Below, in pieces: positions 36,808 to 39,159 of a stretch of DNA of 44,693 nt; position 1 is the first letter of the stretch; each line of letters begins with the position of its first letter. Location: IMG/VR virus record IMGVR_UViG_3300000101_000028, positions 2,973 through 47,665 of that record. One strand, given 5' to 3'. The notes under the pieces are model-generated. The model saw only the letters and a list, made by a program, of their open reading frames with translations, was not told where the DNA came from and did not search any database. The DNA comes from a virus. A program made the translations under genes and the position numbers.

Positions 36808-37497
36808 ATGGCACTACCTAAGTTAAACGAAACACCCAAGTACAGTTTGAACGTCCCTTCGACCGGACAAGAATTGAGATACAGACCGTACCTTGTGAAA
36901 GAAGAGAAGATCCTTCTCATGGCATCATCGTCAGAGGATCCCAAACAGATTATGAATGCGGTGCATGATACGATCGCTGCATGTGTTGAGGGAATTGACG
37001 TACGCAATCTGACAACGTTTGATCTGGAGTATATCTTTATCCAGTTGAGATCGAAGTCGACAGGGGAGACAAGTGAAATACTAGTCAAGTGTCCCCATTG
37101 TCAAAGTCAACAAAAGGTGACGATACCATTGAATGAAATTGAGGTCACTGAGACGACTGCAAACCCAGTAATTAAGATATCAGATACTGTGACTGTGGTG
37201 ATGAAGTATCCTAGTTATCAGGATGTACCACAGACCGGCGGAGAAGAAGATGTAGGTTTCTCGTTGATTGCATCAAGTATTAAAGAAGTGATCAGTGGAG
37301 ACGAAAAGATAGACGTTCGAGACGAACCGATCGAGGGTGTGATGACATTCCTAGAGTCCATGACCAAAGATCAGTTCCAATTGATCACAAAGTTTTTTGA
37401 AGATGCACCAGCAGTGAAGTACAATCTAGAGTTAATATGTGAGAAATGTACTACTGCTTCTGACATTGAAATAAAAGGACTCCAAAGTTTTTTTTGA
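36808..37497 (+). CDS. gp26: Baseplate hub assembly protein gp26, 229 aa
   Basis: Matches the T4 gp26 baseplate-hub family: QELRYRPYLVKEEKILLMASSS, AVHDTIAACV, LTTFDLEYIFIQLRSKS and LVKCPHCQSQQKVTIPL. Two CxxC pairs (CPHC near residue 94 and CEKC near residue 212) likely bind zinc. gp26 is needed for assembly of the central hub. It has a GGAG site before the ATG. The gene ends in FF-stop, the two Phe codons and stop being part of an eight-T run discussed as a slippery site. Confidence 0.9.
   Translation: MALPKLNETPKYSLNVPSTGQELRYRPYLVKEEKILLMASSSEDPKQIMNAVHDTIAACVEGIDVRNLTTFDLEYIFIQLRSKSTGETSEILVKCPHCQSQQKVTIPLNEIEVTETTANPVIKISDTVTVVMKYPSYQDVPQTGGEEDVGFSLIASSIKEVISGDEKIDVRDEPIEGVMTFLESMTKDQFQLITKFFEDAPAVKYNLELICEKCTTASDIEIKGLQSFF
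37488..37494 (+). other. Candidate -1 ribosomal frameshift site T_TTT_TTT before the gp26 stop
   Basis: In the gp26 frame the bases read AGT TTT TTT TGA, giving a perfect X_XXY_YYZ slippery heptamer directly followed by the stop. A -1 slip would continue as TTG ATA TGC CTC GCG into the gp51 frame, which has no ATG of its own. No clear stem-loop is evident by eye within the next 30 bases. Confidence 0.45.
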
Positions 37498-37694
37498 TAT
37501 GCCTCGCGCATGAAGAGCTTTCCAATTATTTTAAAGTAAACTTTTTGTTGCAGAGGCATCATAATTACACATTGACAGAACTAGATATGATGATACCGTG
37601 GGAGAAAGAGGTTCATACCATTCTCCTACTTCAAGCATTGGAAGAAGAAAAAGAAGCTAAAGAGAAGGCAAAACATGGCAATAACACTGGATGA
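37494..37694 (+). CDS. gp51: Baseplate hub assembly catalyst gp51-like, 66 aa
   Basis: The pattern HEELSNYFKVNFLLQRHHNYTLTELDMMIPWEKEVHTILLLQAL fits gp51 of marine T4-like phages (short, helical, with a 'QHHxYSLxExxxMxPWExE' stretch). gp51 is thought to act catalytically in hub assembly and is not part of the virion. The only canonical start is a TTG at 37494 that overlaps the gp26 stop; AAGGAC lies too far upstream (about 10-14 bases) for a strong site, so expression may depend on coupling or frameshifting from gp26. It overlaps the next gene by 20 bases. Confidence 0.82.
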   Translation: MICLAHEELSNYFKVNFLLQRHHNYTLTELDMMIPWEKEVHTILLLQALEEEKEAKEKAKHGNNTG

Positions 37695-39159
37695 CGTAGT
37701 ACTGGCAAACATGGAAACCAACAAAACGTTGGGGATGTTGGTTGATAAGACCAACATTCTGATCGAGATGGAAGGTGACAGTTTCGCTGGACTCGAACTA
37801 CTCAACGAACAGTTTGAAGATTTCCTTGGTCTTGTGCGTAAAGAGTACGACCTTGCGGCAGAAGCACGGCGAGAGAAAAATGGTCTCAAACCATCAGTAC
37901 AGGATGAAGAATTACCTGTAAAGAAACCAGAAAAAGAAGAGTTGCCTTCCTTCTTCGGTGATGTACCGATACTGACTTTTGGTGTGGGTCTGGTTGGGTT
38001 CGCTGCTAATTTTGTTAAAGGGTTTGCTTTACAGGCAGAAAAATTGATCAACCGAAACATCTTTAATCCCATAAGAAGCATGTTCACCTTCATCGGCGAT
38101 AAGTTCAAGTCATTAGGTAACTTTTTTAAAAAGACATTTGATATGGTAAAAGGTTTCTTCAGACTAGACATCGCAGATGATGTCGCTAAGTTTGTGGAAC
38201 CTTTCAAACCCTTCCTTGATAAGGCAAAGGAGTTTGGTAAGTCATTAGCAAACAATCCTCTAGTCAGAGGTCTGAAGTCCGTTGGCAAATTACTAGGTCG
38301 ATTTGCGGCACCCCTTGTAGCAATCTATGAGTTGTTCACAAACATCACTGAGGAGTTTGGAAACTCATCTGGTGGATTCCTTGCCGGTACTGGCGCAATT
38401 GCACGGGGGATCGCTAAGGCAGCGGTAGACTTTTTCGCAATCTTCTTAGACATACCCAAAGACATTATTAGTTGGTTTGCGGGTTTAGTTGGACTCGATG
38501 AATTAGAAAACTTCTTAGACTCCTTTACCTTTGCAGGCATCGGTGATTATATTATAGACCTTATCGGAGATGTGTTTAGTTTGATCGGTGGTTTCTTTGG
38601 CGTCGATGGTTTAGAGATATCAGATGCGGGGCAAGAAGTTGCAAGTATCACTAAGTCAATTCTCCCAAAAATGTTACCCCCAGCAGACTTCGCGGAGTTT
38701 GAGGTGCCTTCAATGGAAGTGTTTGGTAAGACTTTCGGTGGGGGTTCGATTAACCTAAATCCAATTCCTGATGAATGGTATGCCGAGGCGGGAATGGATG
38801 CACCAGAGGGTTCTTCTTCTATAACATCTAATGATACAATGACAAACAATGTGTCGACTGTAGAAGGTGCTGAGGTAATAGGTGGGGATGCATTATCTTC
38901 TGAAAACATTGAGGTGTTGCGTCAACGGTTTAATTCGGAGGCATTGCAGGCAATTAATGAAGAGAATGCGATCACGAATGCGATCAATACACAGAGTGTT
39001 ACTAATGTAGGTAGTTCACAGAGCGCCCCAATAGTGATTCAGGACAACTCTGTGAACTCCTCCAATCAATCAAACGTCAATCAAAGTGTCCAGAGTCGAA
39101 GATCAATGCGATCCCCGACTCGGAACAATGGGACACGAGCGAGTGCATATGAAGCTTAG
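37675..39159 (+). CDS. Tape-measure/gp29-like tail hub protein, 494 aa
   Basis: The N-terminus is helical and acidic; residues about 98-125 (ILTFGVGLVGFAANFVKGFALQ) and several stretches between 200 and 315 (RFAAPLVAIYELFTNI, AVDFFAIFLDIPKDIISWFAGLVG, YIIDLIGDVFSLIGGFFGV) are hydrophobic helices as in tape-measure proteins, which leave the tube first and may form a channel in the host membrane. The C-terminal about 110 residues are Asn/Gln/Ser-rich. It follows gp51, where T4-like phages place the hub/tail-length protein gp29, but the family match is by position and composition only. Its stop overlaps the gp32 stop by four bases, convergently. Confidence 0.65.
   Translation: MAITLDDVVLANMETNKTLGMLVDKTNILIEMEGDSFAGLELLNEQFEDFLGLVRKEYDLAAEARREKNGLKPSVQDEELPVKKPEKEELPSFFGDVPILTFGVGLVGFAANFVKGFALQAEKLINRNIFNPIRSMFTFIGDKFKSLGNFFKKTFDMVKGFFRLDIADDVAKFVEPFKPFLDKAKEFGKSLANNPLVRGLKSVGKLLGRFAAPLVAIYELFTNITEEFGNSSGGFLAGTGAIARGIAKAAVDFFAIFLDIPKDIISWFAGLVGLDELENFLDSFTFAGIGDYIIDLIGDVFSLIGGFFGVDGLEISDAGQEVASITKSILPKMLPPADFAEFEVPSMEVFGKTFGGGSINLNPIPDEWYAEAGMDAPEGSSSITSNDTMTNNVSTVEGAEVIGGDALSSENIEVLRQRFNSEALQAINEENAITNAINTQSVTNVGSSQSAPIVIQDNSVNSSNQSNVNQSVQSRRSMRSPTRNNGTRASAYEA

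Follow-up and report, generated by a model that had tools for sequence, protein, structure and literature searches.

Comparative evidence for a probable −1 frameshift joining the tail-assembly genes 26 and 51 in most relatives of phage T4

In a marine virus related to phage T4, gene 26 ends in a run of eight Ts and the gp51 reading frame follows at −1 without an ATG, which raises the question of how the gp51 sequence is translated. The sequence analysed, referred to hereafter as the window, is a stretch of 44,693 nucleotides (positions 2,973 to 47,665) of the 47.7-kb IMG/VR virus record IMGVR_UViG_3300000101_000028, which carries T4-type tail genes. The original prediction was that ribosomes slip back by one base at the T run, as in programmed frameshifting of the G/GT kind, giving a gp26–gp51 fusion. 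The features of the locus considered here are as follows.

36808..37497, plus strand: gp26 in the 0 frame, 229 aa, PF12322 and phrog_150; the short form
37473..37479, plus strand: Shine-Dalgarno-like AAAAGGA, 8 nt before the heptamer; proposed upstream stimulator
37488..37494, plus strand: slippery heptamer T_TTT_TTT, for −1 slippage of tandem Phe-tRNAs
37495..37497, plus strand: 0-frame stop TGA directly after the heptamer
37494..37694, plus strand: gp51 tail read in the −1 frame, 66 codons, which with gp26 gives a 295-aa fusion
37499..37505, plus strand: 5' arm (ATGCCTC) of the downstream hairpin, 4 nt after the heptamer
37553..37559, plus strand: 3' arm (GAGGCAT) of the downstream hairpin
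37675..39159, plus strand: 494-aa ORF after gp51 with hydrophobic stretches; candidate tape measure protein, by position only

The gp26 ORF matched PF12322 (E=1.7e-60; 204.9 bits against a gathering cut-off of 24.5) and phrog_150 (E=2e-63), and ends CTC CAA AGT TTT TTT TGA. The T run, at 37488-37495, is the only T8 in the window, although T8 as such is not rare by composition, 1.77 being expected. In contrast, an in-frame T_TTT_TTY occurs once in the 13,357 codons of the window's main genes, among 28 Phe-Phe pairs, and that one is the gp26 end. The −1 frame is open from just before the run to 37694 and matched the gp51 family (phrog_634, E=1.3e-19); its first start-like codon is a TTG at 37494 that overlaps the TGA. 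The T8 is also present in three close relatives assembled from other metagenomes, making a base-calling error unlikely. The ‘gp51’ of this locus is, however, only the C-terminal part of what is called gp51 in T4 (249 aa), a point that the original prediction had not recognized.

In order to test whether the T run is conserved, 80 relatives were fetched from IMG/VR, of which 79 reach the junction; with nine named phages and the window this gave 89 loci, 59 of them non-redundant. Every one of the 89 reads NNT TTT TTY at the gp26 end. The preceding codon varies in amino acid (AGT, GAT, AAT, TCT, GCT, ACT) but always ends in T. Elsewhere in the same genes, only 4 of 56 Phe-Phe pairs make this heptamer, and a third of Phe codons are TTC. 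On a tree of the fusion protein, the third base of the first Phe changes 0 times, as compared with 8–21 changes at the 29 other columns of pyrimidine-ended codons; the second Phe, where the rule X_XXY_YYZ allows T or C, changes 12 times. This pattern is that of selection on tandem slippage rather than on protein sequence. In 79 of the 89 loci the 0-frame stop comes 0 or 1 codon after the heptamer, most often exactly one codon later (59), with TAG the commonest stop (47), and this tight spacing may itself affect slippage.

An ATG for gp51 is lacking in nearly all of the relatives. In 77 of 89 loci the −1 frame has no ATG, GTG or TTG at or before its second codon, and where none is upstream the first is mostly at codon 8–19, beyond conserved Leu, His, Leu and Asn residues. 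The fused protein aligns without a single gap in 26 columns spanning the junction in all 89 loci, and several second codon positions of the −1 frame are the constant bases. Annotators have placed gp51 starts at scattered internal codons, or have not annotated the gene. A total of 423 phage records match the gp51 tail, mostly cyanophages, and the frame relation held wherever we checked it in that group, so that hundreds of cyanophage records very probably carry a wrong gp51 gene model.

We next asked whether the heptamer is flanked by signals of the kind that stimulate frameshifting. A Shine-Dalgarno-like element lies about 9 nt upstream: anti-Shine-Dalgarno pairing energy peaks in 8-nt windows starting 17 to 14 nt before the heptamer (mean −5.1 kcal/mol against a background of +0.2). 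This is not only a by-product of the conserved Gly, as its codon ends in a purine in 40 of 57 cases against 153 of 422 elsewhere in gp26 (p=2e-6), and the preceding Glu/Lys/Gln codon ends in G in 22 of 42 against 954 of 3,085 (p=0.004). Downstream, the folding z-score across 52 non-redundant loci is near zero along gp26 and peaks at −1.78 +/- 0.23 for windows starting 5 nt after the heptamer. The two arms pair better within a locus than between loci (z=−5.1), whereas thirteen control positions in gp26 gave −2.1 to +1.4. In the window the structure is the hairpin formed by 37499-37505 with 37553-37559 (MFE −18.1 kcal/mol, z=−2.71), with one compensatory C-G to U-A change in a relative. A single conserved hairpin for all loci was not supported; its form differs between groups, only 31–38% of individual loci have z below −2, and in the window's own group the shuffle control was not significant (63/500). 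A role of these signals in stimulating slippage is inferred.

The heptamer is also present in Citrobacter Ci1, Aeromonas P19, phage 65, Ahp1 and Aeh1, Vibrio ValKK3, CZ01, D481 and vB_VmeM-32, Xanthomonas X1, Pelagibacter Mosig, Methylophilales Melnitz and Synechococcus BUCT-ZZ01. A scan of viral contigs with a distant alignment was unsuccessful, and two single-protein scans gave only six more loci, all of which carry the heptamer. Ackermannviridae and similar phages (Dickeya Ds25CZ; Vibrio K476, D494, Kuja and SUMAE) lack it, and three of these five have TAATG at the junction. Kuja (locus L103, 2640-2720) and SUMAE (locus L094, 2640-2720) lack both the heptamer and an ATG at the stop, yet keep a −1 tail that starts at the same place, and a variant slip site may be used there. 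In Listeria phage LIS04 (locus L095, 1971-2930), the gp26 homologue is followed by an ORF in the +1 (or −2) frame after GAG TTT TTT AGT, with weak similarity to the gp51 tail; a different frameshift direction may serve the same purpose in this phage.

Examination of T4 itself revealed what the product of the frameshift would be. T4 gp51 matches PF12322 over residues 1-201 (7.7e-55), as T4 gp26 does over its whole length (8.8e-64), and the two T4 proteins match each other at E=5.7e-5. The last 54 residues of T4 and Acj9 gp51 match the profile of the −1 tail at 2e-7 and 6e-8, respectively, while T4 gp26 has no such tail. T4 gp51 is therefore a gp26-like domain plus the tail in one ORF, and T4 gp26 and gp51 are paralogous short and long forms. 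The original prediction, in which gp26 was joined to a hub assembly catalyst, missed this point: the product is not gp26 fused to a separate catalyst but the equivalent of T4 gp51. A tree places the T4 gp26 and gp51 domains together (support 0.89, long branches), as expected of duplication in that lineage. In T4, Aeromonas PS49 and Acj9, gp26 lacks the heptamer and is followed by gp25. Among the openly licensed papers searched, none was found that describes this frameshift or the gp26/gp51 paralogy, although Pfam already places both T4 proteins in one family, so the paralogy may have been noticed elsewhere. Sullivan et al. 2010 (PMC3037559) noted that cyanophage and vibriophage gp51 lack the first about 200 residues but resemble the C-terminus, and that gp51 is missing only in Aeh1. 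The frameshift would explain both observations. Aeh1 has GAT TTT TTC GAC TGA and an unannotated −1 tail in the 166-base gap after gp26.

We conclude, from sequence comparison and in the absence of protein, ribosome-profiling or reporter evidence, that −1 programmed ribosomal frameshifting is very probably what joins gp26 to the gp51 tail. In this view, ribosomes translating gp26 reach T_TTT_TTT with Phe-tRNAs in the P and A sites and, held by an upstream anti-Shine-Dalgarno contact and a downstream hairpin, with a stop codon next, a fraction slip back one base and read on in the gp51 frame. The products would be a short protein (gp26, 229 aa), presumably the major one, and a presumably minor long one (295 aa, ...GLQSFF-LICLAHEELSNYFK...), for which the tryptic junction peptide would be GLQSFFLICLAHEELSNYFK.

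Other explanations were considered and appear unlikely. Gp51 could be a separate short protein, started at the TTG or ATG near the gp26 stop by termination-reinitiation, or at an internal Met. A TTG does overlap the TGA in the window and three close relatives; some Ackermannviridae-type phages and the KVP40-like vibriophages have TAATG at the junction, and public annotations start gp51 at various internal codons. The TTG, however, exists only because the run is followed by TGA, and relatives with TAA or TAG lack it; moreover, 77 of 89 loci lack an early start codon, and separate initiation explains neither the frozen synonymous T nor the gapless junction. Separate initiation remains possible in Schizotequatrovirus vibriophages, which have both the heptamer and an ATG overlapping the stop; the KVP40-like vibriophages (loci L101, 2816-2983; L102, 2831-2998; L089, 2816-2983) have both the heptamer and a TAATG stop-start and could make the long form and a free gp51 tail.

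Slippage of RNA polymerase on the T run, with addition of a U, is still less likely. The eight Ts of the window may be long enough for some polymerase slippage, but 47 of 89 loci have only six Ts followed by C, 24 have seven and 18 have eight; what is conserved is the tandem-codon heptamer rather than run length, and an SD-like element is a translational stimulator. That the T run is a chance or assembly artefact, with gp26 and gp51 either one ORF or unrelated neighbours, is refuted by the comparative data. One to two T8 runs are expected by composition and homopolymers attract sequencing errors, yet the same frame relation recurs in 89 of 89 loci from many independent assemblies and in isolate genomes including P-SSM2, Aeh1 and phage 65.

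A role of the pair as tail-assembly chaperones is likely but inferred, and rests on T4 genetics, gene position and a weak fold match. A T4 review lists both gp26 and gp51 as hub assembly chaperones, with gp51 required but absent from the particle and of unknown function (PMC3004832). In the window, gp26 is preceded by a tube-family gene (phrog_45). The 494-aa ORF that follows gp51 gave only a weak hit to phrog_27688, of unknown function, and profile searches for a tape measure protein found only families of unknown function or peptidase/endolysin-like ones; homologous places in relatives hold ORFs of unknown function, about 490-740 aa or longer, and in Aeh1 the ORF at this place is followed by gp3. 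In Listeria phage LIS04, the gp26 homologue lies between tail tube and an annotated tape measure gene. In a Foldseek search with the AlphaFold model of gp26 (pLDDT 86.8), the HK97 tail assembly chaperone 2ob9 had the highest probability among the PDB matches listed (0.75), but the match is weak (E=0.97, TM 0.42 on the target).

In comparison with the lambda G/GT tail-assembly chaperone frameshift (PMC5009743), the locus shares a short protein with a slippery heptamer near its end, a very probable −1 fusion to a tail domain that has no start, and genes, likely of chaperone type, near the tail tube gene; the lambda proteins are non-structural. By analogy to lambda gpG/gpGT, the short form would bind the tape measure protein in many copies and the tail domain would recruit the tube or hub. 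It differs in its sequence family (PF12322, Cys-rich and zinc-ribbon-like), in its T_TTT_TTY heptamer, in the stop of the short form 0–1 codon after the slip in 79 of 89 loci, and in that SD-like and RNA-hairpin signals are seen; homology to lambda G/T is not established. T4 gp26 and gp51 belong to the same family and equal the short and long forms, but T4 encodes them as two separate genes with no frameshift, and seems to have replaced the frameshift by gene duplication. A review states that G-T tail frameshifting is conserved among long-tailed phages ‘except T4’ (PMC5009743), and our results suggest that this exception is only apparent, giving the essential T4 gp51 a testable role as the long form of a chaperone pair. 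It is more likely than not, although far from certain, that a G/GT-like frameshifted chaperone is the ancestral state of the whole T4 superfamily, that T4 is the derived case, and that its gp26 and gp51, long called hub subunit and hub assembly catalyst, are the T4 tail-assembly chaperone pair acting on the tape measure protein. Finally, the layout of signals, with an SD-like sequence upstream, a slippery heptamer and a hairpin a few nt downstream, appears to be that of the E. coli dnaX −1 frameshift, but with T_TTT_TTY instead of A_AAA_AAG, and with the long form as the frameshift product where in dnaX it is the short one.
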